In this document: piece after piece, positions 26,896-62,090 of the stretch
How positions within the stretch are numbered: the first letter of the stretch is position 1
Layout of the letters: every line of letters begins with the position of its first letter
Source: a virus
DNA length: 64,000 bases
Virus record (IMG/VR): IMGVR_UViG_3300045242_000214
Span: 1-64,000 of that record
Reading direction: 5' to 3' (one strand)
Made by a program: the position numbers and the translations under genes
Notes under the pieces: model-generated
Seen by the model: the letters and a program-made list of their open reading frames with translations, nothing else
Told to the model about the DNA's origin: nothing
Database searches by the model: none

Positions 26896-27491
26896 GGCTG
26901 CTGTGTCGCAGGGTGATCACGTCGCGTGGGTGCTGGGTGTGGATGGGCCGCATCAGTTCTAGTGGATACGGAGAACTCACGCTCGTGGTTCATGGGCGGA
27001 AGGTTGTTCGACGCGTTCACCGCATCTCCGCCATGCTGTGGTTGGGCTTTGATCTGGAGTCGGATCTTTTCGTCTGCCATCGTTGCGACAACCCGCCATG
27101 CTTCAATCCCGACCATCTTTTTATCGGGACGGCCGCCGACAACACAGCGGATATGATCGCCAAGAACCGTCAGTCGATGGCAGGCATGAAGGCAAAGTGG
27201 AGTCCCGAGCAAATGGAGGCCGCACTTGACGGACTCCGGAATGGAATGACGCTCAGAGAGGCCAGTCGAACATTTGACGTGACGCGGCCTTGTTTGCGAG
27301 CCCGGGCGCCGTGGTACGTGCCACCGTCGCCATTGCCGAATCGACACGGCGGTCGGCCAAAGACACACGATCCGAAACAGATGGTTCGAGCGATCTTCGC
27401 CGTAAAAGCTGGTGTGCCCGTAAGAGTGGCAGCGCGAGAGTTTGGTGTGCCACGCACAACGCTTAGGCGCTACGTCTCCGGTACACGCTAG
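26877..27491 (+). CDS. HNH endonuclease with C-terminal HTH, antisense in the tail operon
   Basis: 204 residues. SRGCWVWMGRISSSGYG opens the phage HNH fold, RVHRIS and VCHRCDNPPCFNPDHLF hold the catalytic His and metal residues, and GTAADNTADM follows as usual. The C-terminal half has two helix-turn-helix-like units (MTLREASRTFDVT and VPVRVAAREFGVPRTTLRRY). GTG start. It is the only plus-strand gene between the tape measure and the minor tail gene, overlapping the latter's first codons, and must use its own promoter. Confidence 0.9.
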   Translation: MTDLETRLLCRRVITSRGCWVWMGRISSSGYGELTLVVHGRKVVRRVHRISAMLWLGFDLESDLFVCHRCDNPPCFNPDHLFIGTAADNTADMIAKNRQSMAGMKAKWSPEQMEAALDGLRNGMTLREASRTFDVTRPCLRARAPWYVPPSPLPNRHGGRPKTHDPKQMVRAIFAVKAGVPVRVAAREFGVPRTTLRRYVSGTR

Positions 27492-34895: not shown

Positions 34896-35588
34896 ATGTC
34901 CAAGCGTTCGCGAATCACTGATGAAGAGAGGCGCCAACGACAGCGTGAGGCCAATGCCCGCTACAGGGCGAATCACCCTGAGCGTGTAAAGGCGATTCCA
35001 CGATCGCAGCTCCCCCCCGAAAAGGTTGCTCAACTCCGGGCGCGAGATCGAGAAGCGAAGAGACGCGCAAAAGAACGTCGCACTCCCGAGCAGATTGCGG
35101 CTCGCAAGGCGTATGATCGAGCGAGGTACCTGAGAGAGCATGATCGCTTCCTCGAGGCGGCGCGCCTGAAGCGCGAGCGCGACCCTGAAAAACATCGTGA
35201 GGGTGTGCGGCGTTCGGCAGCGAAACGTCGCGCTAGAGATCCGGAAGGAGACAAACGGCGACAAGCACAGGCGACGGCGAGATGGCGCGCTCGCAACCCC
35301 GAGAAGGCGCGCGAAATCGTAAAGGCCGTGCAGCGACGCCACGAGGCGAGGAAACGTGGGGCACAACGAACTGAGGCGGTACGCCTTCGAATCCTTGCTG
35401 AACGCGACGGCTGGCGCTGTCATATCTGTGGAAAGCTCGTGACTAAGAAGAACTGGTCGATGGACCATCTTGTGCCGATCAGTAAGGGCGGTGACCACAC
35501 GTACGACAACGTCTCGCTTGCTCATGTCAGTTGCAACGGCCGCCGCCAAGATGGGCGAACTCCAGCCCAACTTCTCTTCATCGGCTGA
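34896..35588 (+). CDS. HNH endonuclease, antisense in the connector/fibre region
   Basis: 230 residues. The first 160 are a highly charged Arg/Glu helical region with repeats of the type R(A/R)xNPE(K/R) (ANHPERV, RDPEKHR, RDPEGDK, RNPEKAR). The C-terminal domain is a compact HNH: GWRCHICGKLV, WSMDHLVPISKGGDHTYDNVSLAHVSCN. DH of MDHLVP is the catalytic pair; two CxxC-type positions bind zinc. Opposite in strand to all neighbours. Confidence 0.9.
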   Translation: MSKRSRITDEERRQRQREANARYRANHPERVKAIPRSQLPPEKVAQLRARDREAKRRAKERRTPEQIAARKAYDRARYLREHDRFLEAARLKRERDPEKHREGVRRSAAKRRARDPEGDKRRQAQATARWRARNPEKAREIVKAVQRRHEARKRGAQRTEAVRLRILAERDGWRCHICGKLVTKKNWSMDHLVPISKGGDHTYDNVSLAHVSCNGRRQDGRTPAQLLFIG

Positions 35589-43092: not shown

Positions 43093-43168
43093 CTGCGGCT
43101 CAGGAATCGGACTCGCCTCCCCTCAGTTCATGTAAGATGATGGGACCTACTAGAAGGGAGTGGCTCCT

Positions 43169-43939
43169 ATGCCGAAGCGCATCCCAGCAGACCGCAACGC
43201 GATCTTGGATCTCTACGAACAGCTTGGAAACGCGCAGGAAGTGGCGCGACGAATGAACCTCCATCCCGGAACGGTCTACAAGGCGATTCGCCTTGGTCGT
43301 GGACTGTGTGCTGCTGGCTGCAACCGACCTGCTAAAGCGAACCGGGCCTACTGCGAGCCATGTCTCGAGCGTCTTGCAAAGAGATCCCAGGCTGTACGTG
43401 CCGAGCGCCGCCGTCTGGGACTTTGCTTCTACTGCGATGAGCGTGTCGATGCGCCGGTCTCGCGACAGTTCTGCGCAGTCCACCGGATTGAGCAACTCGA
43501 CAAGCAGAGAGACCGTGCTACGCAGCGTCACAAGGAACGCACTAAGGCCGGCCCGCTCACCACAGGTGTGGCTCTGGCGAAGCGGGAGCGAACAATCAAG
43601 TGGCTCTACCGACCTGGCGGCATGGAGGCGTGGGAACGAGACAGGAAGCGGTGCGTGATTTGCGGAACGCACTTTGGTCAAGCCAAGATCCACATTCACC
43701 ACATCGACCTTGACGGGAAGAACAACGCCGCCGAAAACCTCGTCTGCCTCTGCTTCGACTGCCACGAACTGGTCCATCGCCTTCTTAGGGCGCGAAAGCC
43801 CACAAAGGCCGTGACCTGGACTCGTCGTACGTACCCCGGCTTCCAACCGCCGCCGGGGTACGACGCGGATCTTGCCTTCGTCACGGAGAGCGACAGACGA
43901 CACGCAGCAGCCTCTACGCCGCCAGGCCGCTCGGCCTGA
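43169..43939 (+). CDS. HNH endonuclease with N-terminal HTH, antisense next to the capsid gene
   Basis: ATG 43169 has AGAAGGGAG upstream. Residues 1-45 form a helix-turn-helix (NAQEVARRMNLHPGTVYKAI), then CAAGCNRP and CEPCLERL zinc-like pairs, then the HNH core: RCVICGTHF, KIHIHHIDLDGKNNAAENLVCLCFDCHELVH. The pair HH is catalytic. 256 residues. It converges with the decoration gene (26-base overlap) and diverges from the capsid gene. Confidence 0.92.
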   Translation: MPKRIPADRNAILDLYEQLGNAQEVARRMNLHPGTVYKAIRLGRGLCAAGCNRPAKANRAYCEPCLERLAKRSQAVRAERRRLGLCFYCDERVDAPVSRQFCAVHRIEQLDKQRDRATQRHKERTKAGPLTTGVALAKRERTIKWLYRPGGMEAWERDRKRCVICGTHFGQAKIHIHHIDLDGKNNAAENLVCLCFDCHELVHRLLRARKPTKAVTWTRRTYPGFQPPPGYDADLAFVTESDRRHAAASTPPGRSA

Positions 43940-45788: not shown

Positions 45789-47318
45789 TTAGATGAGCAG
45801 CGAACCGAGCAGATCCGGGTGCGGCTGAACCTGCCAGTCGGCAGGCTCCTGCGGCATGTAAGCGCGTGGCACCTCGGGTCCGTAATCGGCGCCCTGAAGC
45901 GAGCGCCTGACACCCGTGCCGCCCACCGAGAACCCGGTGTACTTCCCGTCGAGGAAGTCCTGCCAGAGGGCGTCGTCCTCGACGTGCATGACCATGACCC
46001 AACTTCCGGCCTTGATCATTTCCTTGCCGTCGTAGCTGAAGTCGGTGGGCGCGATGAACGACTCGACGGGGATCACACCTTTGCCGTCGCGCTTGAAGCC
46101 CTGCGTGCGATGCTGCAGCTTGGCGACGGTCGCCTTGCCGCGGATGATCCGCTTCATGTAGGCGTGGGCGGCCTTCTCGACGTGCTTCGGGAGCATGAAG
46201 TCGTCCTGCGAATCCATCGCGTTCGGCTCGAGCACGACGCCGCAGGCGAGTTGCTTCCACTGGTCGGCTTTACGCACGGGCAGAAACTCGCCGCGCAGCA
46301 CCGACTCGTCCTTGCGCTTGCGTCCCTGACCGACATAGGAGACCGAGATATCCGGGAGCGGCACGTTCACATGCACGCTCGCCAGTCCGGGTCCGACCTC
46401 GCCGAGCGTCTGGGATGACGGTAGCGCCGAGGAGGCGCCGAGATCGCCGGCAGGGGGTATGTCTCCGGCGGGACCGTCGGCGCCATCCTTGGCTAACTCC
46501 CCACCGGCGAGTGCGGCGAGCTCGCGCCAGGAGTGGGGAGCATCGGAGTAATGGGAGACGACGTTCGGATTGACCCAGCGCATGTCCCCCTGCACGTCCT
46601 GGAGGAAGTCGCCGGTCTCGACCTTGAGCACGTCGCCCTTGCGAGCGCGCACGCGCGTTGGCAGGGTGCGACCGACGTAGTGACCGTCGCGAGAAGCCAT
46701 CCGGTAGACGCGCATCCCGCCGGGGGCGTTGGAGACACCGTGCACGCGCAGGTGCAGCGTCGTCGGACGCGCGTCTCCCTTCGCAACCTTCGTCCAGGGA
46801 CGAGAAGCACGTAGCTCATCACGGATTGCAGGGCTACGCTTCATGTCGTCGGGATGCCACCAGGCTGCGACCTCGACGTCGTCGCCGTCAGGATCATCCG
46901 GATTGAGCACGCGCCGGTCCTCCGGGTCGAGGTTCAGCTTGACGGAATCCTCATTTGGGACCTGATGGACGAATCCGTGGTAGATGCCACTGCGCCATTG
47001 GCCCGCGTGCTCGCCCTTCGGCAGGCGCAGTCCCATTTCCTCTTGCCACTCGCGACGCGCACCGTCGTAAGGATGCTCGCCGTCCTCAAGTTTGCCGCCC
47101 GGAAATTCCCACTTGCCCGCCGCAGGGTCTTTCGGATCTGAGGTCGAGCGCTGAATCATCAACACGCGCCTCGTGTTCTTAGCCCTCACCGCGATTCCTG
47201 CCGCCTTCGGTGCCGTGCCCTTGCCAATCCGCATCGGCTCAAGCCGGTTGGTCATCTCCGCGACGCGGTCAAGATCATCCTGATCCCAGGTCGCAGCGTT
47301 GAGCGTGCCGTCTCTCAT
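45789..47318 (-). CDS. Nudix hydrolase fused to XkdF-like prohead protease
   Basis: ATG 47318 in an ATGA overlap; 509 residues. Residues 75-96 are a complete Nudix box (GKLEDGE...REWQEEMG: G-x5-E-x7-REW-x-EE-x-G). Residues about 185-265 (TTLHLRVHGVSNAPGGMRVY, RKGDVLKVETGDFL) are a beta domain of unknown type. The last 150 residues (CGVVLEPNAMDSQDDFMLP, VESFIAPTDFSYDGKEM, KAGSWVMVMHVEDDALWQDF, GKYTGFSVGG) match XkdF-like phage serine proteases. The protease should mature the prohead. A Nudix fused to it is unusual. Confidence 0.82.
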   Translation of the reverse strand: MRDGTLNAATWDQDDLDRVAEMTNRLEPMRIGKGTAPKAAGIAVRAKNTRRVLMIQRSTSDPKDPAAGKWEFPGGKLEDGEHPYDGARREWQEEMGLRLPKGEHAGQWRSGIYHGFVHQVPNEDSVKLNLDPEDRRVLNPDDPDGDDVEVAAWWHPDDMKRSPAIRDELRASRPWTKVAKGDARPTTLHLRVHGVSNAPGGMRVYRMASRDGHYVGRTLPTRVRARKGDVLKVETGDFLQDVQGDMRWVNPNVVSHYSDAPHSWRELAALAGGELAKDGADGPAGDIPPAGDLGASSALPSSQTLGEVGPGLASVHVNVPLPDISVSYVGQGRKRKDESVLRGEFLPVRKADQWKQLACGVVLEPNAMDSQDDFMLPKHVEKAAHAYMKRIIRGKATVAKLQHRTQGFKRDGKGVIPVESFIAPTDFSYDGKEMIKAGSWVMVMHVEDDALWQDFLDGKYTGFSVGGTGVRRSLQGADYGPEVPRAYMPQEPADWQVQPHPDLLGSLLI

Positions 47319-49750
47319 TTTGCTGTCAGCCTGTCCGACGCCGGCGTGTCCGGACCCGGCCGCGTCACCACTCGCGGCGAGAAATCGTGGCCCTCCTTTG
47401 GTTCCGGCAGGCCGCCCTGGTTCATCGCCCACGGCAGCACCGTCTCCCAGTCGATCGGGGCTCCGGACTGGCCGAGCCGCATGATGTAGTTGCCGAGTGT
47501 GTCCAGGTCAACCGTCTCCACCGCTCCGTGCGCCAGGGACGGCTGCGGCATCGTGAATCCGTTCAGCGCCCAGAGGCGCGGCACCAGCTGCGTGTTGATC
47601 ACCGACGAGATGATGTCCAGATACGCGCCGAGCGACGCGGCGAACAGGTCCTTCTTCGTCACCGCCAACGCGTATGAGCCGACCTTGTCCTGGCCCATCA
47701 TCACGAGGTCGGCGAGGACGGAGGTTGCGATTCGGTTCTCGTAGCGCGAGATCGCGCCGCTGATGTCGAGTTGGCGTGTGCCGCCCGTCGTCAGCAGTTC
47801 GAGCACCCAGCCGTCCGGCAGCACGATCCCCTCTTGCTCGTCGCGGCGAATCGACGAAACGACGTTCTGGGCGAGCGTCCGCATCGCGGCCATCGCCGGG
47901 TCGTTCGAATCCCAGATGTCGACGCCTGGCGGGGGATGCAACATCGGCAGACCAGCGAGGTCGCGCTCCATCCCGATGCCCTCCAGGTTTTGGAGGTTGC
48001 GGGTGAAGTAGAAAGCTCTGTACGCGTTGCGAAGTATCGAATTATGGGTGGGTACCATTGCGCGCCCTGCAAGAAATAGCCCACCTGGCTCGCCAACCTG
48101 AATGCAGACCGTGCGCTGTCTCGGGGCTGGCTCAATGCGACTGACCATGTGCGCCGAGGACTTGTGACTACGACGCAGAACTTGCCGCTCCCGCTTGCGC
48201 TCAAGACGAAATACCCAGCGATCTAGGGCGAAATGTACGCGGTAGTTCGGCTTCGTCGCTACCACTGCGCGCCCATTCAACATGCCCGCGAAGTGACCAG
48301 CTTTTGTTGTTACCTGAACATGCGGTATCCCACCGAGGGATCGCACCAACTCTTCACAATCAGCGATCAGTCTCCGATCGCTATTGAAGAACATGCAGCT
48401 TCCGATGTTTCCGATCGCGCCATCTGAGTCCATAAGTCCTTGCAGGAGAGCAAGTCGCGCGTCCGGGTCGGCCTGCAAGTACATCCTTGGCACATGTTTG
48501 TTGCCGAGCAGTCCAAGCCCTCTTAGGACCGTGCGAAGACCGGCGACACCAAGATAGCCGCTGCCGTAGTCGGTGTGCTCGAAACCAGCGAGGCGGATCT
48601 GGTCGACTAGATGAGGAAGGTCGCGCTCACCGTATGAAATGCGACCGTCTCGAGCGTTGCCATCCCCAAGCCAATATCCGAGCACATACGGGTCGAGAGG
48701 CAGATGAGTCGTTGTGCCTCGCAAACGCGGTGTCATCCCGAACGAGAAATGCGGTCTGCTATGAGTCTCGAGATGCTCGGCCATCTGCTGCGTCGTCAGC
48801 AGATGCTTGCGTTCGCGCGAATGAGTCTTCGTTACTGACCACAGATGGTTCGCGTCCGCGACGATGGATTGCCCCTCTGTCAGCACGACCTCGTAGCACG
48901 GACGGTCATCCCAGGACGCTACTCCGACGACAGGGGTGGGTTCCCCTTCGGCATCGTAAACGAAGTCACCAACCTTCAACTCGTCCATGCGGCGCCATCC
49001 ATCCGGCGTAGGAACTGGGGTGTCGGCTGCGAGAGCCCGCCCTTCCGGATTTTGCTTGAAAATCGTCGTACGGAAGTGCAGGGCTTTCTCTGTCGGAATG
49101 AACCGCAGCAAATAGTCGGGCGGCGGGTTCTGGATCAAGCCCTCGATCTGGCCGGTGTCATCGAACACCCATTTCCAGAGCGAGTCCTGGGAGCGCCCCG
49201 GTAGTCCAGCGAGGGCGATCTGACCATCGTCGAAGCGGGAGTTGAGGCTCGAGTCACGGTTCTCGCCGTTCCGCTTCTTGTAGACCGTCTCCTGCCACGA
49301 GTAGCCGTAGCCGAGGAACGAGATGATGTCGGTGATCGTGTCCGGCCAGGAGGTGCGCATGTCGTTCAAGACGCCCCAGAGCCACTCGGCCTGCTGGGAT
49401 CCCTTTGGCTCGCACCACCAGGTCACGCGGCGCATGAGCATCGTGATCGCGTACATGATCGCGCCGATGATCGGATCCTGGTCCTGCATTTCACGGTAGA
49501 CCTCGGCGGCACGTCGCCCTTGCTGAAGCTCGCGCAGCCACTCCTCGAAGACAAAGCCGCCCCAGTGTCTGAGACCGGAGCGGCCGAGCTCCTCGTAGAT
49601 GTCGCCGCCGAGACCGAGACTGCCGCGCGATTGCGGCGTGGCGGCCTTGCTCATCGTGACGAGTTCGCGAGGCCCGAAGTCACCGACGATGTGGCGAATG
49701 TCCCCGTTGCCGTTGCGGGGGACGGTGTACTCGGGGAGGCCGCTGCTCAC
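47315..49750 (-). CDS. Portal protein interrupted by an intein
   Basis: The 811-residue precursor becomes a 479-residue portal of the Mu gp29/DUF935-like type after removal of residues 239-570. Extein segments AEVYREMQDQDPIIGAIMYA, TDIISFLGYGYSWQETVYKK and, across the splice point, NPEGR|SILRNAYRAFYF are family features; the insertion is at the conserved NPxGR..LR loop. The portal forms the dodecameric DNA gate and motor dock. GTG start in a GTGA overlap; the stop is ATGA-coupled to the protease. Confidence 0.9.
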   Translation of the reverse strand: MSSGLPEYTVPRNGNGDIRHIVGDFGPRELVTMSKAATPQSRGSLGLGGDIYEELGRSGLRHWGGFVFEEWLRELQQGRRAAEVYREMQDQDPIIGAIMYAITMLMRRVTWWCEPKGSQQAEWLWGVLNDMRTSWPDTITDIISFLGYGYSWQETVYKKRNGENRDSSLNSRFDDGQIALAGLPGRSQDSLWKWVFDDTGQIEGLIQNPPPDYLLRFIPTEKALHFRTTIFKQNPEGRALAADTPVPTPDGWRRMDELKVGDFVYDAEGEPTPVVGVASWDDRPCYEVVLTEGQSIVADANHLWSVTKTHSRERKHLLTTQQMAEHLETHSRPHFSFGMTPRLRGTTTHLPLDPYVLGYWLGDGNARDGRISYGERDLPHLVDQIRLAGFEHTDYGSGYLGVAGLRTVLRGLGLLGNKHVPRMYLQADPDARLALLQGLMDSDGAIGNIGSCMFFNSDRRLIADCEELVRSLGGIPHVQVTTKAGHFAGMLNGRAVVATKPNYRVHFALDRWVFRLERKRERQVLRRSHKSSAHMVSRIEPAPRQRTVCIQVGEPGGLFLAGRAMVPTHNSILRNAYRAFYFTRNLQNLEGIGMERDLAGLPMLHPPPGVDIWDSNDPAMAAMRTLAQNVVSSIRRDEQEGIVLPDGWVLELLTTGGTRQLDISGAISRYENRIATSVLADLVMMGQDKVGSYALAVTKKDLFAASLGAYLDIISSVINTQLVPRLWALNGFTMPQPSLAHGAVETVDLDTLGNYIMRLGQSGAPIDWETVLPWAMNQGGLPEPKEGHDFSPRVVTRPGPDTPASDRLTAK
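48041..49036 (-). mobile_element. Class 3 intein with LAGLIDADG endonuclease
   Basis: The intein is 332 residues, Ala1 to Asn332, with Ser as the +1 extein residue (PTHN|S). It starts ALAADTPVPTPDGW with Ala rather than Cys. Block B DANHLWSVT carries the Trp, block F VCIQVGEPGGLFLAG carries the Cys at 311 and block G VPTHN the Thr: the WCT triplet of class 3 inteins. LGYWLGDGN (118-126) and LLQGLMDSDGAIG (197-209) are the two LAGLIDADG motifs, both with the catalytic Asp. It is therefore likely splicing-competent and mobile. Confidence 0.9.
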
Positions 49751-50547
49751 GAGTCGAGACTATCGCGCAGCCGGGAAAGTCCGACGCTGCGTATCTGGCG
49801 TGCTTCCTCGACCGTCTTTGCTCGCGGCACGCCCTGTATCGGCTGGGGCGCGTCGCCGTAGCGGTGGTGACGCTTCATCTCGGCGACCATCTGCTCGTAG
49901 CCTCCGGTCTGATGGGCACGTTGCAGCATGGAGTCGTCCTTCGTCTGATAGTGAAAGAGTGTCTCGTAGCAGCCGACATAGCGGGCGCCGCGCATCATGA
50001 GGTCGACGTGGAGGTCGTAGTCCTCGAGCGCGAGCGTCATCTTCGCGTTCCAGCCGCCGACGCAGCGCAGCATCTTCGCGCGGTAGAGGCTGGCGTAATA
50101 GCAGCGGTTGTATTGCCACATCACGTCGAGCGTGACATCTTCGATACGGCGATCGAAGCCAGGCCCGTAGGTGCCGTTCCTGGTCGGCCCGTGCTCCTGC
50201 AGACCCGGCACGACGACGTCGGCGTTCTTGAGCAGCGGCACGGTCTTCTCGATGTAGTGCTCGTCGATCCAATCGTCCGCGTCGAGCGGCAGGAAGGCGT
50301 CTCCCTCCGCGAGCATCAGTGCGACGTTCCGGGCGCCGGCGAGCCCGCGATTCGTGACCTGGACGAGGCGCACGTCGGTGTGGCCCGTGCAGATGCCGGC
50401 GATCTCGCTGGCCTCGTCGGGCGGTGAGCCGTCGTCGACCACGATGACCTCCAGCGCGGGCCAAGTCTGGGCGAGAGCACTTTCAAGGGCGCGGTCAAGC
50501 GTGTCAGCCTGGCCATAGCAAGGGATCGCGACGGTGACAGAGGTCAT
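49747..50547 (-). CDS. Glycosyltransferase family 2
   Basis: ATG 50547 (MTSVTVAIPCYGQ) in an ATGA overlap is the start; 266 residues. VTVAIPCYGQADTLDRALES, VIVVDDGSPPD, GLAGARNVAL and FLPLDADDWIDEHYIEK are the classical GT2 motifs with DxD. GYETLFHYQ-type C-terminus (CYETLFHYQTKDDSM) fits. First enzyme of the glycan cassette when read from the portal side. Donor unknown. Confidence 0.9.
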   Translation of the reverse strand: MTSVTVAIPCYGQADTLDRALESALAQTWPALEVIVVDDGSPPDEASEIAGICTGHTDVRLVQVTNRGLAGARNVALMLAEGDAFLPLDADDWIDEHYIEKTVPLLKNADVVVPGLQEHGPTRNGTYGPGFDRRIEDVTLDVMWQYNRCYYASLYRAKMLRCVGGWNAKMTLALEDYDLHVDLMMRGARYVGCYETLFHYQTKDDSMLQRAHQTGGYEQMVAEMKRHHRYGDAPQPIQGVPRAKTVEEARQIRSVGLSRLRDSLDS

Positions 50548-51269
50548 AGCGCCGCCACCAGCTGCCGCATGAGGGATTCGCGTTGGCCCCAGTTCGGCAC
50601 TCGGTTCCAGTGGGTCGTATTCGTCAGGTGCACGAAGTCTGAGATGCGCTCGACCGCGTCCGAGTGCGTCGTGCCGTTCGTGGTCCTGATCCAGTCGTAG
50701 CCGTACGAGATCGGCGGCAAAGCGTTGAGTTGTTCCTCGGTGATGAGGTTCGCGAGCTGCGCGCCCGTGTCGACGCCAGGGAGGCTGTCGAAGTCGGGCA
50801 TACGGCCATCCAACCAATCGCGGCGGAAGAATACGAAGCCGGGCCAGAGGTAGACCTGGCCGTTCTCGCCATTGCGCTGGCCGACGCCGAAGAAGCCACA
50901 CGGTTCGACGAGGGCAAGCAACGACGTTGGGCGACATGGGAAGACGTCGTGGTCCAAGAAGCCGAGCACGGGCGCCTGCCGGTTCATCAGGTCCGCGCAG
51001 GCGTGGTGAAGAGCGTCCTCGTGTAGCCGCTTCCCGTCTCTCGCAGCCCGCAGCGGGACACGCGTGTAGCGCGCACCTTGGGCCTTGCAAAGCTGCTGGA
51101 TGTCCCAGGCCACCTTCGCGTCGTTCGAGTTGTCGTACACCGAGAGGACGAACGAGTCGGTCAGGTACTTCGGGTAGAGACGCAACGCCTCTTCGACGAC
51201 CCAAACGACGTCGGAGACGATCATCGCCAGATCGAGCTCGGCCTCGCAGATGTCGCTCACATCAGCCAT
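50544..51269 (-). CDS. Glycosyltransferase-like protein (GT-A)
   Basis: ATG 51269 (MADVSDICEAELD) overlaps the upstream stop by 13 bases; 241 residues. FVLSVYDNSNDAKVAWDIQQL and VLGFLDHDVFPCRPTSLLALV hold a DxD (DHDV) in GT-A position; GFVFFRRDWLDG and WIRTTNGTTHSDAVE follow. It resembles uncharacterised glycosyltransferases of capsule loci. Substrate unknown. Confidence 0.65.
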   Translation of the reverse strand: MADVSDICEAELDLAMIVSDVVWVVEEALRLYPKYLTDSFVLSVYDNSNDAKVAWDIQQLCKAQGARYTRVPLRAARDGKRLHEDALHHACADLMNRQAPVLGFLDHDVFPCRPTSLLALVEPCGFFGVGQRNGENGQVYLWPGFVFFRRDWLDGRMPDFDSLPGVDTGAQLANLITEEQLNALPPISYGYDWIRTTNGTTHSDAVERISDFVHLTNTTHWNRVPNWGQRESLMRQLVAAL

Positions 51270-52302
51270 CGACGATTCTCCAGTGTCCAGCAAACGGTGC
51301 GTCGGAGTGACTCGGCCAAAGGGATCGGAGGCTTCCAGCCGAGTGCTGCCATCCTCGATCCGTCAAGGGCATATCTGAGATCATGGCCTGGCCGGCTCTC
51401 GTGCCAGTTGACGAGCTCGTAGTCGATCTTGCGGTTCGCGTAGGTGGCGATCATCCCGGCCATCTTCAGGTTGTCGACCTCGCGCTCCCCGACCACGTTC
51501 CAGCGTCCCATCTCAGTGCTATCCGCGTAGATGGGGAACGGCTGCGTCCGAAGCAGGAACAGCAGAGCGTCGGCCTGGTTGCGGGCGTGGAGGTAGTAGC
51601 GCGACCCGATGCTGACCGGCCGGGCGTACTCGTCGACGCTCGCGTGGATTGGGACGGTCTGGCCGGCCAGCACCTTCGACAGGACGAGCGGCACGAACTT
51701 CTCGGGGTCCTGGCGCTCGCCGATGATATTCATGGTGTTGGAGATCCCAACCGGCAACCCGTACGTCCGCCAGTACGAGTAGATGATGTCCTCCTGCGCC
51801 GCCTTCGACGCCGAGTACGGGTTGGACGGCCGGTGCGGCTCGCCCTCGACGTGGTTGTGACCGACCGAGGCTGGTCCGTACACCTCGTCCGTCGAGACGT
51901 GCAGGAACTTCTCGACCGGATGCTCGCGCACGTAGTCGAGCAGGGTCAGGACGAGCTGGACGTTGTTCTCGATGAAGCTGCGCGGCTCGGTGATGCTGCG
52001 GTCGACATGGGATTCTGACGCGATCGAGACGAGGTAGTCGATCTCGCCGATCCGCTCAGCGAGCTGCGCGTCGATCGGGGCACGGAGGTCATGGGTGAGG
52101 ACGGTGACCCGATCTCTCCAAGTGAATGAGGATCGGCCCTGCGGCGTGCGATCGTGTGCATCAAGCACCTCACGGATCCGGCTCGTCTTGCCGCGATGCC
52201 GGAACGAGTCGAGGCAGATGATCTCCCAGTCGGTGTTTTCCAGGGCATGTTCGAGAAAATGGTGCCCCACAAATCCACCCGCTCCGGTGAGGAGGACGCG
52301 CT

Positions 52303-52306
<4 letters not shown>
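51257..52306 (-). CDS. NAD-dependent sugar-nucleotide dehydratase, RmlB-like
   Basis: ATG 52306 (MKRVLLTG) is the start. 349 residues. GAGGFVGHHFLEH is the Gly-rich NAD loop, VSTDEVYGPASV carries the Thr-Asp-Glu of 4,6-dehydratases, and YSASKAAQEDI is the catalytic YxxxK. NTMNIIGERQDPEKFVPLV and the C-terminal RPGHDLRYALDGSRMAALGW are typical of dTDP-glucose 4,6-dehydratases, including D..RYA.D. Product would be a 4-keto-6-deoxy sugar nucleotide. No RmlA/C/D genes are present. Confidence 0.85.
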
Positions 52307-53216
<910 letters not shown>

Positions 53217-53220
<4 letters not shown>

Positions 53221-54059
53221 GAGACCGCCTCGATGAACCTGCGCAGGCGTTCATCCGCTTCGTCCTTGTCGCGGACCTCCCAGTTGCCACCGCCGCCGAG
53301 GTGGACGAAGATGCCGCCGTACGTCTCGCTGGCTCGGTAGTGGTCGTGCTGTGTGTTGGAGTCCCAGCGGAAGAAGTCCTGCAAACGGTCAGGAAGAGCG
53401 CCGTTCGCCGAGAAGGTATGAGCACGAGCCGAGCAGATCCCGAAGGAACCGAAGCCGCCCTGGTTCGCCTTGAGGAAGAGGTAGAGCATGCCCCCGACGT
53501 CGCAGGGCGTGTCATTGATGTGGGCGCAGTCGAGATTGAAAAGGCCCATGCCAGCCGCTCGCCTCGGGTCGACGAGGAGCAGGCCGTTCCAGAGGTAGAT
53601 GATCCCGTCGCGGGTCTGCGGCACACCCCAGATCGGCTTGATGGCCAGGAGGTTTTTCGGCTCGACCGGGCTGTACGGGACCATGTCGGCGTCGAGGATC
53701 AGGATCGGCTCATCCGACTCACCGAGCAGCAGGTTGACGCCGAACTGGACGGCGTCAGCGCAGCGCGTGTTCGCGTTCTCGACGTTGGCGAATTCCTCTG
53801 GCTCGTTGGGAAAGACCTGGCGCCGGTCGGTGTGCCACTCCTGCGGGAAGCGATGCTCTTGTGCTCCGATTGGCAGACAGGCCGCGGTGATCTCTGCAAC
53901 CGTGCCGCGTCTCCAGTTGTTCGAGAAGTGCTCATCCTCCTGCGCATCGTTGACGACGTGGAGTTCGTATGGATGGTGGGCCATGTGCCGGACCAGCGCT
54001 TTCCCTTGCGCGACAAGCAAGTCGCCGGACGTGCAGGCGGTGACAAGGACACGAATCAT
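53217..54059 (-). CDS. Glycosyltransferase-like protein (GT-A)
   Basis: ATG 54059 ([13 protein letters not shown]) in an ATGA overlap; 280 residues. [16 protein letters not shown] is a DxD metal site, followed by [21 protein letters not shown] and [13 protein letters not shown]. The family around GT8-like or capsular transferases has this order. Substrate unknown. Confidence 0.72.
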
Positions 54060-54616
54060 TCGAGCAGACCCATGCCGACGCGTTCGGTGACCTCGCTCCA
54101 GCTGCGGCCGTACATCGCCGCCCAAGTGCGAGCCGCGTCACCAGGCCCCGCACCGTTCGTGTCGTGAATCAGCATCGGCGCGTCAGGAACGAGACGCTGG
54201 ATCAGGGCGATCTCCCTCGTCACCATCACGGCCGAATGGTCACCGTCGAGGAAGAACAGCGGTCGCCTTGGTTGCTGGCGCTTCCACCGAATCAGCGACT
54301 CGGTGACGCCGTCGCCGCGCCAGGCAAACACGCCTGTGTCCTTGATGTGCATGCCGCAGTTGACGCCCGGATGTTGCCCATCCAGGTCTCGCAACTCGTC
54401 GGGCAATTCGGTCGTGTTGATGGCTGCCTCAAAGCCCAGGCGCAGGTCACACTCCCAGAAGATGCGAGCCGAGCAGCCCGAACCCGTACCCCACTCGGCA
54501 ACGAAGTCCGGGCGCAGCCGCTCCATCGTGTCGCACATGAATTGAAGCTCCTCTCCCGGATAGCCTCCGACAGCCAACGGGAAGGCCTCCACTACCTGAC
54601 TCGCGAGGTCACTCAC
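54056..54616 (-). CDS. Class I methyltransferase, CmcI-like
   Basis: 186 residues. FVAEWGTGSGCSARIF is the AdoMet motif I, and RPLFFLDGDHSAVMVTREI near residue 120 is the FFLDGDHS motif of CmcI/Methyltransf_24-type O-methyltransferases, with PMLIHDTNGAG after it. It probably methylates a sugar hydroxyl in this cassette. Confidence 0.78.
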   Translation of the reverse strand: MSDLASQVVEAFPLAVGGYPGEELQFMCDTMERLRPDFVAEWGTGSGCSARIFWECDLRLGFEAAINTTELPDELRDLDGQHPGVNCGMHIKDTGVFAWRGDGVTESLIRWKRQQPRRPLFFLDGDHSAVMVTREIALIQRLVPDAPMLIHDTNGAGPGDAARTWAAMYGRSWSEVTERVGMGLLE

Positions 54617-54801
54617 GGTCGCTTCGCTATCAGCCGCACGGTGCCTAGCGGGCCGTCGTCCTTGCTCAGCTGTCGATCCTCGGATAACTCGCTCGGGAGG
54701 AGCAGGATCTCGCCGCCGGCACGCTCAACCAGGATCGCAAGAAAACGCAGGACCTCCTCGTGCTGGCGTCGCAGCTGGCGGAAGTCGCTCTCGAGGTTCA
54801 T
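54613..54801 (-). CDS. Small hypothetical protein (62 aa)
   Basis: Helical N-terminus (LESDFRQLRRQHEEVLRFLAIL) followed by a short strand-rich tail. Coupled to both neighbours by ATGA overlaps. Possibly an accessory subunit of the glycan enzymes; no family recognised. Confidence 0.5.
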   Translation of the reverse strand: MNLESDFRQLRRQHEEVLRFLAILVERAGGEILLLPSELSEDRQLSKDDGPLGTVRLIAKRP

Positions 54802-55481
54802 CGGCCGGTCAGCGCCCGCTGCTCGGGTGTCTTGTCGAGGGCGAGGATCCGCGGCTGGTACTTCTCCGTCCAGACGACGCGTTCGTAATACGACGAGTCG
54901 GCCGGATGGCAGTAGGCGGGCGAGAGGAAGGACTTGTATCCGCGATAGGCCACCGCAGCTGCATTGAGTCCACTCTCATCGTTCCATCGAGCCGTGATTC
55001 CGCGAACGCGGTCCTCGTCGATTCGCCTCACGACCATACGGGCGAGATCCTGAAACTCGCGGCGCTCTCCGCCGACAAATCCGCCGGCGAAGTAGTGATG
55101 CCGTTTCTCCAACGGCACGTAGGAGGCGGACTCAGGGCGGTCCTCGAATGGCAACTCCTCGGCCGACTTGCCGACGTAGCCGGGATGGAGGGTGAGAACG
55201 ACTCCGTCCTCGTCCTGCGGCAGGACTTCGGCTTCAATCGGAGCGACGCACAACATGTCGCAATCCACCATGTAGAGATACGTGCTGGTGAACTTCTCGC
55301 GCAGCAGTCTGTGGTAGCGCAAAAGCGTGCCATCTGGCCAACCAGAGGGTCCGTCGAGGACGACATACTCCTGTCGGCCGCACGGCTGGAAGAACTCGCG
55401 GGCCGACTCCATCAGCGCCTCGGCGTATTGCTCGTAAATAGCACCACCCGCGACTGCGACCAGCGTGCAGGACTCAGACAC
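54798..55481 (-). CDS. Glycosyltransferase family 6 (ABO-type) enzyme
   Basis: 227 residues. [13 protein letters not shown] supplies the metal-site region that follows a Tyr-Leu strand, [20 protein letters not shown] is the donor/acceptor GG(F/Y)xGG motif, and [17 protein letters not shown] then FLSPAYCHP are the family's W-DES-LN and LSPxYC hallmarks. GT6 enzymes transfer alpha-Gal or alpha-GalNAc in a retaining reaction. Bacterial and cyanophage members also lack the membrane anchor, as here. Confidence 0.82.
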
Positions 55482-56460
55482 GGGCTGGCGCCTCTACTGC
55501 TGCGAGGTCGTGGTCGACCATGATCCACACGAGCTCCTTGAACCCGACGGTCGGCTCCCACCCCAGCTTCTTCTTCGCCTTCCCTGCGTTACCACACAGC
55601 TCGTCGATCTCGGCGGGACGCAGGTATCGCTCGTCCGTCACCACGAAGTCACGCCAGTCCAACATGTCCCGGATTGGGCCGTGACTGAATGCCTGTTCGA
55701 GGAACTCGCGGACCGAGTGCGGTTCGCTGGTCGCGAGGACGTAATCGTCCGGCTCGTCGGCCTGCAACATCATCCACGCGCCGCGCATGTAGTCGGGCGC
55801 GTACCCCCAATCGCGCTTCGCGTCCAGATTGCCGAGCACTAGCTTGTCCTGTTCGCCACGCCGAATGGCAGCGACAGCCTTAGTGATCTTCCTGGTCACG
55901 AATGTCTCACCGCGCCGGGGCGACTCGTGGTTGAAGAGAATCCCGTTGGCCGCGTACATGCGATACGCCTCGCGGTAGTTACGCGTGATCCAGTAGCCGA
56001 ACACCTTGGCGACGCCGTAGGGGCTACGCGGTTGGAACGGTGTCAACTCGTTCTGGGGCGGCGGCGCGTTGCCGAACATCTCGCTCGAGCCGGCCTCGTA
56101 GAAGCGGCAGGCGAGGTCGGACTCACGGATCGCGTCGAGGAGGCGCAGCGTGCCGAGCGCGTCTATGTCGGCCGTGTACTCGGGAATGTCGAACGAGACG
56201 CGGACGTGGGATTGGGCGCCGAGGTTGTAGATCTCGTCGGGGCGGATGGTGCGGATCAGACGGTTGAGGGAGGAGCCGTCGGCGAGGTCGCCGAAGACGA
56301 GTTCAAGGTCGTCGAAGATGTGGTCGATGCGGGCCGTGTTGAAACTCGACGAGCGGCGCACCATTCCGTAGACCTGGTAGTCCTTCTCCAGTAGGAGTTC
56401 GGCGAGATACGAGCCGTCCTGCCCGGTGATGCCGGTGATGAATGCTCTGCGCTTAGACAA
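55474..56460 (-). CDS. gmd: GDP-mannose 4,6-dehydratase
   Basis: Start TTG 56460 overlaps the previous stop by 8 bases (TTGTCTAA); 328 residues. [20 protein letters not shown] is the highly conserved Gmd N-terminus; [33 protein letters not shown] (YxxxK), [18 protein letters not shown] and [17 protein letters not shown] are all typical. It makes GDP-4-keto-6-deoxymannose, the substrate for Fcl at 52303-53220. Confidence 0.95.
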
Positions 56461-57361
56461 GGGCCGGTTCCCGTCCCAGCTCGAGCGCGCGCTCGATGGC
56501 CTGCAGCGATTCGCGGTACGAGTAGCGAGCGACGGCGCGCTGCTGCTCACGCACGACGCCGAGATACTCCTTGCGCCTGAGCGCGAGCGCCGAGTCGATC
56601 ATCTCCGCGACCGAACCGGGTGTCGGTGACCAGCCGCCGAACAGCGTCTGCACCGCCGGCACATTCGTCAACGACAGGACGCCATACGCGGGCGCCTTCA
56701 GGGTGCGGCAGGGGATCAGGTCGTGCTCGACCTGCCAGCCGCCGGCGAACGCAGGCGCGATCCGCGCCGACCGGACCGCCTCGACCATCTCCGCATCCGA
56801 CAGCTGGGTCAGGCGGCGAAACTTGAGTCCGTGGTCGGCGAGCGCGAGCCGTGTCTCCTCGATCACCTCGCGATTGCCGAGCTCAACGCCATCGACCAGC
56901 TGGCTCCAGACCGCGCCGACGAAGACGGCATCCTGCGACTGCGGGTTGAAGACCGGCTCGAGGAACTCCTCGGGGAAGAGGTCGGTCCCCCACGGTTGAT
57001 AAAGCACGCGTCCAGAACGGTCGTAGAGCCGGAACGGTGCCCATTCATCCCCACGAGCGTCCGAGGTGTAGACCTGGAGCCGCAGGAGACGTTCCGGCTC
57101 CACGGTTTGACAGAGAACGTGCGTCGAACTGAAATTGTGCAAGATGTAGTCGACCTCGGGCATAGCCGCTCCGATGTGCTCTGACCAGATGTCCGCGCCG
57201 ATGACCGTTGTCCCCGGCACGAGAAGTTGGCGCGCGTCGGCTAGGTCGTCCGTCCAGACCGAGCGGATCCCGAGCTTGTGCGCCGCCCTGTAAAAGTGGG
57301 ACCAGATCCAACGGAGGCTGTTGCCGTCCGAGACACCGCCCCAGAGGACGAGGTTCTTCAC
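56453..57361 (-). CDS. Glycosyltransferase-like protein (GT-B, C-terminal EX-type)
   Basis: 302 residues. [24 protein letters not shown] begins the second Rossmann domain, and [37 protein letters not shown] resembles the donor site of spore-type glycosyltransferases (GT_1-related), with IPCR.LK..A.G. Likely transfers sugar from a nucleotide donor. Confidence 0.72.
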
Positions 57362-58014
57362 TGCAGTCGCTCCGCCACTAGTTCCGCTTCGACGGTAACG
57401 GCATCCTCAAGATAGGCGTGCAGCAGGACCTCGCCGCCCAACGATTCGTAGAAGGAGACGGCCACCTTTGAATTCGCGACCATGATTTCGTCGATGCGCG
57501 TCTTCGACCATACGTTCTGCCACAAGCCGTCGCGCTCACGCAGGAGGTAGTCCTCCTTGCCGGGGCGCATGAAGAAGACGACGATCATCTCGAGCCGGGC
57601 CACACGGATCATCTCGGCCAGCGCCCGGTCGATCCGGGGCAGGTGCTCGAGGACGTGGCGGCAGTAGACCAACTCGAAGCTGGAGTCCTCGAACGGGATC
57701 TCCTCGATCGAACCGGCGGCGATGTTGGGCTCTTCGAGGTCGTACCGTTCGGCGATCTGATCGGCGGCTTCACGCATCGCCTCGGACGGTTCGACGCCGA
57801 CGTACTCGACGTCGTAGCTGATGTTCTTCATCCCGATCGCGTCGAGGCCAAGGCCGGCGCCGCAGTCAAGGACTTTGAGGTAGCCGCACTCTGCGATGCG
57901 TTCGCGGATGCGCACCCGGCTGGGGTGGTCGACGCCACCGAGCCAGGTCTCGAGTTCGTCAAGACCGCCGGCCAAAGCGAACTCTGTCCACCACGCGCCC
58001 TCGCTCACAGCCAT
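57358..58014 (-). CDS. Class I SAM-dependent methyltransferase
   Basis: ATG 58014 (MAVSEGAWWTEF) overlaps the small membrane gene by 10 bases; 218 residues. LKVLDCGAGLGLDAIG is motif I, YVGVEPSEAMREAA motif II and SFELVYCRHVLEHLPRIDRAL motif III/post-III. Typical of sugar or small-molecule methyltransferases of surface glycan loci. Confidence 0.85.
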   Translation of the reverse strand: MAVSEGAWWTEFALAGGLDELETWLGGVDHPSRVRIRERIAECGYLKVLDCGAGLGLDAIGMKNISYDVEYVGVEPSEAMREAADQIAERYDLEEPNIAAGSIEEIPFEDSSFELVYCRHVLEHLPRIDRALAEMIRVARLEMIVVFFMRPGKEDYLLRERDGLWQNVWSKTRIDEIMVANSKVAVSFYESLGGEVLLHAYLEDAVTVEAELVAERLQ

Positions 58015-58130
58015 TCTCTCAGTTCCGCGAAGGTAATGAACCACGCGACAAACATGACCAACCACGCTACGACCACAGCACGCCAACACCAGAGGAGTCG
58101 CCGGTACGACCTGTCCAGGGGCTCCATCAT
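58005..58130 (-). CDS. 41-residue membrane protein
   Basis: ATG 58130 is in an ATGATG overlap with the upstream gene's stop; stop TGA 58007-58005. A basic N-terminus (DRSYRRLLWCWR) precedes AVVVAWLVMFVAWFITF, one membrane helix. It fills the gap between a glycosyltransferase and a methyltransferase, so it may anchor the glycan enzymes at the membrane. Confidence 0.6.
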   Translation of the reverse strand: MMEPLDRSYRRLLWCWRAVVVAWLVMFVAWFITFAELREWL

Positions 58131-58936
58131 GCGAACCTCAGCGAGAACTCGACATGAGCGGCGTTCACGGCGTCAGGGTCGATGTCCAGGGCGAGCCGGT
58201 TGCCGCCGAGGTAGCCGTGATTGAGAGTGGCGACGTCGTGGGCGTGCATCTCGCCGAACCGATTCGACTCATGGCTGGACCCTACGCGGTTCACGGGTAT
58301 TCCCACGAGGCTCGACTGGGCGTGCGCCGCCATCATCGGACGGTCGAGGTCGTTCCACTGGAAGTCGCGCGCTAGCTTCGCCTCGACGGTGTTCGGATCG
58401 GACCAGTCGAAGACGTCCTGCAACAGCGGGAGCAGGTCGACGGTTCGGAAAACGTGCCCGTCGAGCGACGCGGGGTACGAGAAGTCGCACTCGGCCTGCC
58501 CCCACTCCCAGTAAAGGACACCGTCCTCGGCGCTGTGCGTCGCCGGGAGCGCCTGCGAGCACCGCAGCGGATAGCACTCCGTCGTGTTCAGCCCAAGGCG
58601 CGGCGAGAAGCAGAGCACGTCCTCGTCCTCGCACAGAATTTCGGCCGGGTCGCGGCCCTCGACCTTGCGGTAGAAGACGCAGTCGTCCATCAGGAACGCG
58701 ACGTGCTCGTCCTGCTGGGCGAGCCAAAGAGTCTGGCCGCGCAGGTCGCGTTCGGCATGGAACGGAAACTCGAGGTGCTGCAACTCGCAGGTGCGATAGG
58801 CGGCAGCGTACTCGCGCTCGCCCTTCCAGATGACGTGGACGCTGTCGTAGAGGTGCGTGGCGTTCTTCTGAAGCGAGCGGAGCAGCAGGTCGAGCTGTGC
58901 GGCCCTGTTTTTGCTGAACACGATGACGGTCGTCAC
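58127..58936 (-). CDS. Glycosyltransferase-like protein (GT-A)
   Basis: 269 residues starting TTVIVFSKNRAAQLDLLLRSL, the strand-helix opening of GT-A proteins, and HVAFLMDDCVFYRKVEG, whose DDC acts as the DxD equivalent. The segment EDVLCFSPRLGLNTTECYP follows. Similar proteins occur in bacterial capsule regions. First enzyme gene of the cassette in transcription order. Confidence 0.72.
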   Translation of the reverse strand: MTTVIVFSKNRAAQLDLLLRSLQKNATHLYDSVHVIWKGEREYAAAYRTCELQHLEFPFHAERDLRGQTLWLAQQDEHVAFLMDDCVFYRKVEGRDPAEILCEDEDVLCFSPRLGLNTTECYPLRCSQALPATHSAEDGVLYWEWGQAECDFSYPASLDGHVFRTVDLLPLLQDVFDWSDPNTVEAKLARDFQWNDLDRPMMAAHAQSSLVGIPVNRVGSSHESNRFGEMHAHDVATLNHGYLGGNRLALDIDPDAVNAAHVEFSLRFA

Positions 58937-59881: not shown

Positions 59882-59959
59882 ATGAAGTCTTCTGCTGGCG
59901 GGGTTAGGGACAAAATCTTCGCGCCACTACTCAGTCTGAACAAAGTTCCGTCTCCCTAA
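59882..59959 (+). CDS. Candidate leader peptide (25 aa)
   Basis: ATG 59882 follows the candidate -10 by 3 bases. The peptide begins MKSSAGGVRDKIF and ends KVPSP; TAA 59957-59959 lies inside the left arm of the large hairpin. The first residues resemble MKSAAHT at 357. Position and overlap with a hairpin suggest a leader peptide, but the frame is short and may be chance. Confidence 0.35.
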   Translation: MKSSAGGVRDKIFAPLLSLNKVPSP

Positions 59960-60002
59960 CCCACCCCCCCTGAAAGGTGGGTTGGGAGACGAAGGAACTT
60001 TG
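59941..60002. promoter_or_regulatory. Large intergenic hairpin
   Basis: Left arm 59941-59965 (CAAAGTTCC, GTCTCCC, AACCCACC) pairs with right arm 59976-60002 (GGTGGGTT, GGGAGAC, GGAACTTTG), broken only by a 3-base and a 1-base bulge, around a 10-base loop. No T run follows on the plus strand, so it is not a plain terminator. The left arm can instead pair with 59901-59910 (GGGTTAGGGA with 59953-59962). Confidence 0.75.
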
Positions 60003-60094: not shown

Positions 60095-60421
60095 GTGCGC
60101 TTCCGTCGCCGCCGTGACGACAGACCCAAGCTTCCCACCGAGAAGCCCTACCTCGTCACCATCCACGCCGAGCACGACCAGTACCACACCTTCGCCATGG
60201 GACCCGGCGACGCAGTCGGCGTCGGAGCCATTCGAATCGACATCGCCAAAGACGGCAGCATCCACGCCAGCCCCAACGCGGTACCGCACGCAGAACAGGT
60301 CACGACGATGCGCACGCCGGTCTTCGTCGGCGAAACGCAGGTGAGCGGAGAAGCGCTCGCCGAAGCTGTGCGGCGCGAATTACTCAAGGTGCATCGACGC
60401 AACGGGCCACGCACCGCATGA
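60095..60421 (+). CDS. Hypothetical protein sharing a C-terminal module with the tape measure (108 aa)
   Basis: GTG start; basic N-terminus (RFRRRRDDRPK). The C-terminus ALAEAVRRELLKVHRRNGPRT is identical at 14 of 21 positions to AVARAVRTELLRVQRRNGAQT of the tape measure, preceded in both by a Val-rich strand. The middle (YLVTIHAEHDQYHTFAMGPGD) is beta-like. First gene of the rightward unit, so an early or regulatory role is more likely than a structural one. Confidence 0.6.
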   Translation: MRFRRRRDDRPKLPTEKPYLVTIHAEHDQYHTFAMGPGDAVGVGAIRIDIAKDGSIHASPNAVPHAEQVTTMRTPVFVGETQVSGEALAEAVRRELLKVHRRNGPRTA

Positions 60422-60972
60422 GACGCCGCTTCTTCAACCAGCCGCTCCTCATCGGCGGACGCGAAGTCCAAGCCTTCTCGACAGGCGCCGTCCTGACCAG
60501 AAACGGACGCTGGCTCATCCTCTACACCGACCCCATTCTCGACGCCGAAGCATTCTGCAACGGCCTGCTCAAAGAAGCCTTCGACGAATGGGGACACTAC
60601 GAACGCCCCGACGAATACGACGAAGCACTCCAAGAACTCCTCATCCGAGCGCTCCGCCTCGAGCGCACCTATGATCCCGAGAGGAGCCAAAGCTTTGCCG
60701 ACTACGCCAGATACATCCTCCGCAGACGCGCCGCCGACGTCGGACCCCGACGCCTCCTCGGCCGCTCCGGCAACCGAATCCACGACTACCTCCACGACAC
60801 GCTGGAACCGGGCGCTGGAACAAGTGAACCTGGAGAACCTCTCGGTACGCGGTCGAGCGATCCGAATCGAGATTGGGGAGATGATGCCGTCTGGCTACCG
60901 CCTGAACGAAATCGCGAAAGAGCTCGACGTCACGCCGTCCTGGGTCTCCCAGCGGCTCGACGAGCTGCGTAG
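60418..60972 (+). CDS. Sigma-70 region-2-like protein, 5' part of a split gene
   Basis: ATG 60418 in an ATGA overlap. Residues about 60-115 (YDEALQELLIRALRLERTYDPERSQSFADYARYILRRRAADVG) follow sigma region 2: helices ending in the F..YA...LRRR.AD core. After about residue 130 this frame becomes low in protein-like character (TSEPGEPLGTRSSDPNRDW), while the frame at +1 carries sigma region 4. It therefore looks like the front half of one gene whose frame changes between about 60770 and 60824. Confidence 0.6.
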   Translation: MRRRFFNQPLLIGGREVQAFSTGAVLTRNGRWLILYTDPILDAEAFCNGLLKEAFDEWGHYERPDEYDEALQELLIRALRLERTYDPERSQSFADYARYILRRRAADVGPRRLLGRSGNRIHDYLHDTLEPGAGTSEPGEPLGTRSSDPNRDWGDDAVWLPPERNRERARRHAVLGLPAARRAA

Positions 60973-61708
60973 CGAAATCGTCCTCGCCGGCGGCGGCTTC
61001 CTCCCCCTCTCAGACAGCGAATACGAAGCGCTCAAAGCGTCCATCGCCGAACACGGCCAGCGGGTCCCCGTCATCGTCGGCGCCAGCGGAGTCCTCGACG
61101 GCAAGCACCGGCTCACGGCCCTCCGCGAACTCGGCATCACCGAGGTCCTCGTCGAGTTCGTCACCGACGCAGACCCCGAAACCGAACGCCGGATCAGCCG
61201 CACCGTCAACGCCGCCCGCCGCATGCTCAACCGCGCCCAAAAGGAAGCGCTCGTCCGCGCTGAGTTGGAACAGAACTGGTCCCGCTCGAGCCGGCAAATC
61301 GCGCTCGACTGCGGCTGCAGCCCCCCGTTCGTCGAGACCATTCGCGACGCGGTACGCAGAGAACGCGAGACCGAGAATGAGGACTGGGAATTCGACGACG
61401 AACCCGCGTTGAAAGTTACTCACGACGGCAAAGAAGTTCCCGCGCCACGCAGCGTCGGCGAAGCCGTACGCGCAGCCAGCGTCCCACGCGAAGAAGAAAT
61501 GCGTGTTGACGCCGGCGGAGTCCGCCGCCCCGCCTACGTACGCAAACCAGGCACCTCCCACAAAGCCAGCGAACCACACAGCCGCTGGGCCGGACGCGAA
61601 GGCCACGCAGACCGCCCCAAAGGCCACGCAACCTGCGCACACGGCCAGCAACACGCCATCTACCGCGCCGACGACGGCACCTGGACACTCAAACCCGACG
61701 ATGGCTAA
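60824..61708 (+). CDS. Sigma region-4-like HTH fused to ParB-like domain
   Basis: Start GTG 60824 (VNLENLSVRGRA) if independent; the frame is open further upstream. Residues about 1-50 (SGYRLNEIAKELDVTPSWVSQRLDELRSE) are a sigma region-4 HTH. Residues about 60-130 hold EHGQRVPVIVGASGVLDGKHRLTALRELGI, the ParB/Srx core with GxHRxxA-type motif, and RSSRQIALDCGCSPPFVETI is a second, KorB-like HTH. The C-terminus is Arg/His-rich and disordered. ParB-like phage proteins act as nucleases, CTP switches or regulators; the fusion to a sigma-type HTH is unusual. Confidence 0.68.
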   Translation: MNLENLSVRGRAIRIEIGEMMPSGYRLNEIAKELDVTPSWVSQRLDELRSEIVLAGGGFLPLSDSEYEALKASIAEHGQRVPVIVGASGVLDGKHRLTALRELGITEVLVEFVTDADPETERRISRTVNAARRMLNRAQKEALVRAELEQNWSRSSRQIALDCGCSPPFVETIRDAVRRERETENEDWEFDDEPALKVTHDGKEVPAPRSVGEAVRAASVPREEEMRVDAGGVRRPAYVRKPGTSHKASEPHSRWAGREGHADRPKGHATCAHGQQHAIYRADDGTWTLKPDDG

Positions 61709-62090
61709 CCCCGAAGAACACGAACGCGCCCGCCGCGTACTCGCCATCCGCGACAACGACACGGACGACGAAGAACACCCCTTCGACCGCCTAGCCGCCG
61801 ACGACCCTCGCTACCTGCGCGAACAGGCACGACTACACACACCCGGCTCAATCGACACGCTCGTGGCGATCCGAGACGACTGGACACAGCCAGGCAGCGT
61901 GCGCAAAAGCTGCGCCGAACTCCTCCTCGCCTACGGCTGGGGAAAACCCTCAAGCCAGGCCGACATCATGCGCCTCTTCCTCGACCACGAAAACGGCGAC
62001 AGCATCATTCGCTTCGAGATGCCTATGACCGTCGACGGCGTCAAAGACGATGACTCTGACGGCAAAGCACGAGCGGGCGATCTCGGATGA
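61701..62090 (+). CDS. Terminase-small-subunit-like helical protein (129 aa)
   Basis: ATG 61701 overlaps the previous stop by 8 bases. RYLREQARLHTPGSIDTLVAIRDDWTQPGSVRKSCAELLLAYGWGKP is the helical repeat (HTPxxIDxLVxI ... A..LL..GxGKP) found in small phage proteins beside terminases. The rest is acidic. It is a better family match for a small terminase than the gene next to terL, though 15 kb away in a circular map. Confidence 0.55.
   Translation: MANPEEHERARRVLAIRDNDTDDEEHPFDRLAADDPRYLREQARLHTPGSIDTLVAIRDDWTQPGSVRKSCAELLLAYGWGKPSSQADIMRLFLDHENGDSIIRFEMPMTVDGVKDDDSDGKARAGDLG

Follow-up and report, generated by a model that had tools for sequence, protein, structure and literature searches.

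The phiEco32-like phages encode sigma-70-family factors, and a ParB domain followed by a helix-turn-helix (HTH) is a common phage module, found standalone or fused to methyltransferases. In Bacillus subtilis, SigO (sigma4) and RsoA (sigma2) form a two-subunit sigma (PMC8103513). The CTP-binding motifs of ParB are Box I, ELxxSIxxxGxxxP, and Box II, GERRxRA (PMC10653881). ParB domains are also described in phage multidomain proteins, in a paper from which the word sigma is absent (PMC5512222), and no sigma-ParB fusion appeared among the titles and abstracts listed in a literature search. Here we describe a locus in a 71,879 bp IMG/VR virus record, of which the window (the 64-kb stretch analysed, positions 1 to 64,000) forms part. 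The locus is most likely a single gene encoding sigma2, sigma4, ParB and HTH domains in ∼429 aa and interrupted by a +1 break, rather than two overlapping genes.

ORF1 (60418..60972, + strand, frame 1; 184 aa) comprises an N-terminal extension and sigma-70 region 2, and is coding only until ∼60813. Region 2 (residues 62–107; 60601..60738, +) matches Pfam Sigma70_r2 (PF04542) at 3.7e-7 over model positions 18–63 of 71, its 30.3 bits exceeding the gathering score of 24, and was also located there by a search of the whole record; ORF1 alone aligns in addition with TIGR02937 positions 27–67 (19.1 bits, 7.7e-4). ORF2 lies in frame 2, +1 of ORF1, and runs to a stop at 61708. It encodes, in order, a region-4-like HTH, a ParB/Srx domain, another HTH and a short element at the C-terminus. 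Its region-4-like HTH (60839..60979, +; read-through residues ∼141–187, with a block pLDDT of 82–84 for residues 161–180) corresponds to positions 100–161 of TIGR02937 (sigma70-ECF), which ORF2 alone matches at 8.6e-5. The score for frame 2 alone is 22.2 bits when residues upstream of GTG 60824 are included and 19.3 bits without them, and the sigma similarity may reach upstream of this start. The original prediction of region-2-like helices in frame 1 and a region-4-like HTH in the +1 frame is borne out by these matches.

With the two frames joined across the break, TIGR02937 is matched from position 27 to 161 in one colinear stretch at 2.3e-8 (about 33.8–33.9 bits), a score below the curated cut-off of this model (33.9 versus 42.9). 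The match to the phage sigma family phrog_1740 changes from 0.22 in the unjoined to 7.4e-4 in the joined protein, and spans residues 64–186 only in the latter; a generic Clostridia ECF sigma from a genome-contig scan aligns across residues 63–180. The joined match at 2.3e-8 and, independently, the gain for phrog_1740 point to more than chance, with the joining of the halves resting on statistics inside a single record. The colinear match supports the earlier view that regions 2 and 4 belong together and, judged from the sequence, they are most likely parts of one sigma factor. Similar to the ECF and sigma-70 sigmas (TIGR02937, PF04542, phrog_1740; phiEco32-like phages), region 2 is followed, when the break is read through, by region 4 at roughly normal spacing; as with phage sigmas such as those of phiEco32-like phages, the gene is carried by a phage, close to where an operon begins. 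It differs from them in a sigma match that stays under the TIGR02937 cut-off, in an N-terminal extension of ∼60 aa, in the broken frame and in the ParB-HTH module directly behind region 4.

A Viterbi frame scan, together with the crossover of codon log-odds and GC3, places the +1 change of frame at 60785..60824 (+), and the likeliest switch point by Viterbi is 60813/60814, at a short G run. Across all 71.9 kb of the record, a seven-state Viterbi scan shows no other place where one coding frame passes directly into another on the same strand. ORF1 remains open for 156–159 nt beyond the change, and this frame-1 tail (60817..60972, +) is off-frame-like and probably not real coding. Its 51 codons have a mean codon log-odds of −0.204, compared with off-frame medians of −0.27 and −0.30 and with +0.299 per codon in frame 2 across the same positions; 3.9% of genuine in-frame windows are equally low. 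The overlap of ∼150 bases described previously holds as ORF geometry but probably not as two overlapping coding regions, since frame 1 loses its coding character, and becomes non-coding-like, from ∼60813. Within the C-terminal tail of ORF2, at ∼61421–61701 (+), the codon scan favours frame 3 over the ParB frame, which may reflect an overlapping signal or odd composition; frame 2 there retains GGVRRPA, resembling DGVxxPA of ParB relatives. This preference for another frame, along with the 3.9% of windows, means that the codon scan is not infallible.

A two-subunit sigma, with a region-2 protein from ORF1 ending at 60972 and a region-4-ParB-HTH protein from GTG 60824 or ATG 60884, is unlikely. 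Both proteins would assemble on RNA polymerase, as do SigO and RsoA, which provide a split-sigma precedent (PMC8103513). The frame of ORF1 is indeed open until 60972, but its codons beyond 60816 resemble off-frame DNA, with a C-terminus as low in 0/60 other ORFs tested, and the overlap of ∼150 nt exceeds the upstream-gene tails of nearly all other close gene pairs. GTG 60824 immediately precedes the region-4 domain, but its ribosome-binding score is at background level; ATG 60884 scores better, with GGGGAG upstream (−7.3 kcal/mol), but the spacing is short and a start there deletes the first helix of region 4. The likeness to SigO-RsoA is that sigma2 and sigma4 occupy separate open reading frames, whereas the B. 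subtilis pair consists of two working genes, and here the frame-1 tail is non-coding-like and sigma4 carries ParB.

The simplest cause of the break in a single gene is an indel, arising either from an assembly or sequencing error or from a real, natural lesion in the phage; the short G run at the switch marks the place to inspect and does not discriminate error from lesion. An indel is likelier than programmed frameshifting because the sequence showed neither a shift-prone site nor a significant RNA structure. That programmed +1 ribosomal frameshifting joins the frames, and so sets the ratio of a region-2-only protein to the full fusion, is highly improbable: the required geometry, a long overlap crossed by a +1 shift, is present, but by inspection 60772–60820 contains no codon permitting +1 re-pairing of a P-site tRNA, no frame-1 stop lies near the switch, the RNA fold is ordinary (z about −1.2; −1.18) with no stimulatory structure, and there are no conserved copies that would indicate selection. 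It was rejected as the main reading for want of a shift site and of structure. Of the three explanations in the original prediction, the best fit is a single polypeptide whose frame is broken by an indel or an assembly error; its production by frameshifting gained no positive support. Overall, we regard it as moderately probable that a phage ECF-like sigma, a ParB/Srx domain and a KorB/Noc-type HTH constitute one gene with a +1 break at ∼60813, most likely an indel.

Region 4 and the ParB-HTH module share one uninterrupted frame, so their fusion is independent of how the break is read. The ParB/Srx domain (residues 192–270; 60992..61228, +) is identified by TIGR00180 (6.8e-7), by many PHROG ParB families and by a fold match; the Pfam ParB model PF02195 gave no match at 0.1. 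It is followed by the second HTH (residues 271–321; 61229..61381, +), of KorB/Noc/Spo0J type by alignment, with Noc, KorB and ParB matches reaching residues 312–324. A small three-stranded element is predicted at the C-terminus (residues 401–424; 61619..61690, +; block pLDDT 68–82) and has no family match. Both the ParB/Srx core and the KorB-like HTH had been proposed from the sequence, and these matches confirm them.

AlphaFold2, run on a 21-sequence alignment with the break read through for folding, predicted the ParB-HTH core with confidence. Its closest structural matches are M. xanthus ParB, Noc and KorB: the ParB fold superposes on the CTP-binding M. xanthus ParB with a Z of 10.1 (74 aligned, rmsd 1.6), and the Noc and KorB matches extend over 117–129 residues. 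The sigma2 part was folded at low confidence (pLDDT 40 for the sigma part in single-sequence folding), and no sigma2 chain was among the listed matches (VIA table) in the structural comparison of this low-confidence N-terminal part. The prediction for the joined protein is thus confident for ParB-HTH and neither supports nor rejects sigma2.

The glutamate of ENxxR is catalytic in ParB; here its position is occupied by V. Box I, LKASIAEHGQRVP, matches LxxSIxxxGxxxP, and Box II reads GKHRLTA, which matches GxxRxxA and retains the G, R and A and the GxxR core of GERRxRA. On these motifs, CTP binding by the ParB part is possible. The locus is like the CTP-binding ParB superfamily (ParB/Spo0J, Noc, KorB, VirB, PadC) in fold (Z up to 10.1), HTH, Box I and GxxR, but differs in having GKHRLTA for GERRxRA, V for the ENxxR glutamate and an N-terminal sigma. 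No ParA was noticed in the operon or among the ORFs read.

ParB and the second HTH are ∼30–37% identical to phage ParB-HTH proteins, for example that of Mesorhizobium phage vB_MseS-P1 and the N-terminal part of a methyltransferase from Agrobacterium phage Rivra. The pattern LNxxRR...Q...S.R.IA is common to the phage ParB-HTH modules (phrog_498), but the copies found stand alone or precede a methyltransferase, and none has a sigma region in front. It could be argued from these copies that the protein is a ParB-family regulator carrying an additional HTH and a region-2 remnant or look-alike, acting on phage DNA without RNA polymerase in repression, anti-silencing or partition, or as a nuclease or methylation partner. 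The ParB half is the best-conserved part (phrog_498, 1.8e-12), and VirB exemplifies a ParB-like regulator that lacks a sigma part (PMC10653881). We nevertheless consider a non-sigma protein improbable, as region 2 exceeds the Pfam gathering score and precedes region 4 colinearly, at the distance typical of sigma factors.

IMG/VR, INPHARED, PLSDB and one genome-contig scan yielded no second case of a sigma-ParB fusion, and the search for homologues with both halves in one frame, suggested with the original prediction, returned none from these sources. The searches used short patterns or tblastn, which favour close relatives and may miss distant fusions, and the viral-contig scans may omit very near records. 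ORF1, ORF2 and the joined protein retrieved no fusion from IMG/VR viral contigs, where a degenerate DNA pattern for sigma region 2 had no match. The best 80 of 321 relatives from a ParB alignment search included none with the sigma part aligned, and a sigma alignment search, to which two made-up helper sequences were added solely to broaden the patterns, likewise gave no fusion. A DNA pattern for an HTH followed by DGxHR had 10 matches, and in the matched frame none of them (0/10) looked like a fusion of HTH and ParB. By tblastn, phages and plasmids (INPHARED, PLSDB) contained no fusion; the genome-contig scan, which used invented helper sequences, yielded the generic Clostridia ECF sigma only. 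PF04542 was found in 0/18 viral records holding ParB relatives, and the relatives of the terminase are short contigs that lack the gene.

Genes from ∼9.5 to 59.7 kb are mostly leftward, and a rightward block begins near 60.1 kb. Its first gene is a 108-aa ORF with a GTG start (60095..60421, +), which has no family match and a positive coding score in frame; its TGA and the ATG that starts the sigma ORF overlap as ATGA. The placement at the head of a phage operon is therefore nearly correct, but the sigma ORF is the second gene. The next gene, a 129-aa ORF (61701..62090, +) that has no family match, overlaps the stop of the ParB frame. The divergent intergenic region ahead of the rightward operon contains a long, near-perfect inverted repeat (59941..60002), present once within the window and predicted at −40.5 kcal/mol (z −6.1), with no shuffled sequence equally stable; it is a possible control element. 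This position, second in the rightward block and behind a divergent region with the inverted repeat, suits an early regulator of phage transcription, and early expression is inferred from the place near the operon start.

Other features of the record were also noted. A DUF3631 protein (1.3e-44; L003:6293-7432, record positions 66292-67431) lies farther downstream in the same rightward block and has a relative (36%) in Pseudomonas phage Phipami28. On the leftward strand, 49747-58936 (−) holds a long series of ORFs that, as judged by reading, resemble sugar-nucleotide epimerases/dehydratases, glycosyltransferases and methyltransferases and adjoin phage structural genes. The 811-aa portal protein ORF (47315-49750, −) matches Portal_Mu in its C-terminal half (4.6e-23) and has a weak LAGLIDADG match mid-protein; this gene probably harbours an intein. 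Three HNH-like ORFs, again judged by reading (26877-27491, 34896-35588 and 43160-43939, all +), run in the direction opposite to that of the structural genes and are probably homing endonucleases.

In intact members of this lineage, sigma2 and sigma4 would bind host core RNA polymerase and initiate at phage promoters, so that the host enzyme would be redirected by the phage ECF-like sigma. The ParB-HTH part would bind a second DNA site and either anchor the complex there or load it from there, and CTP may drive loading, spreading or switching, as in ParB/VirB proteins. It is a tenable, if not the favoured, possibility that the locus reflects a natural fusion in which a ParB-HTH clamp, perhaps CTP-dependent, tethers or gates the promoter use of the sigma factor, or else a two-subunit sigma with ParB on the region-4 subunit. 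As a natural fusion, it would load RNA polymerase near ParB-bound sites of the phage genome.

We conclude that the architecture is real, unusual and seen once, and that the break is more likely an indel than biology. The new regulator type envisaged originally is possible, but stands on a single example with no homologue found to hold both halves. Should the break be only an indel, the domain fusion remains unusual, with one phage as its source, and the record calls for caution; high interest would follow only from an intact gene in reads or relatives together with action of the protein on RNA polymerase. The sigma factor and the ParB clamp represent two separate modes of action on DNA. If the fusion is true, the phage would link its choice of promoters to a DNA clamp that slides or is gated by CTP, which would be a new route for the takeover of host RNA polymerase.
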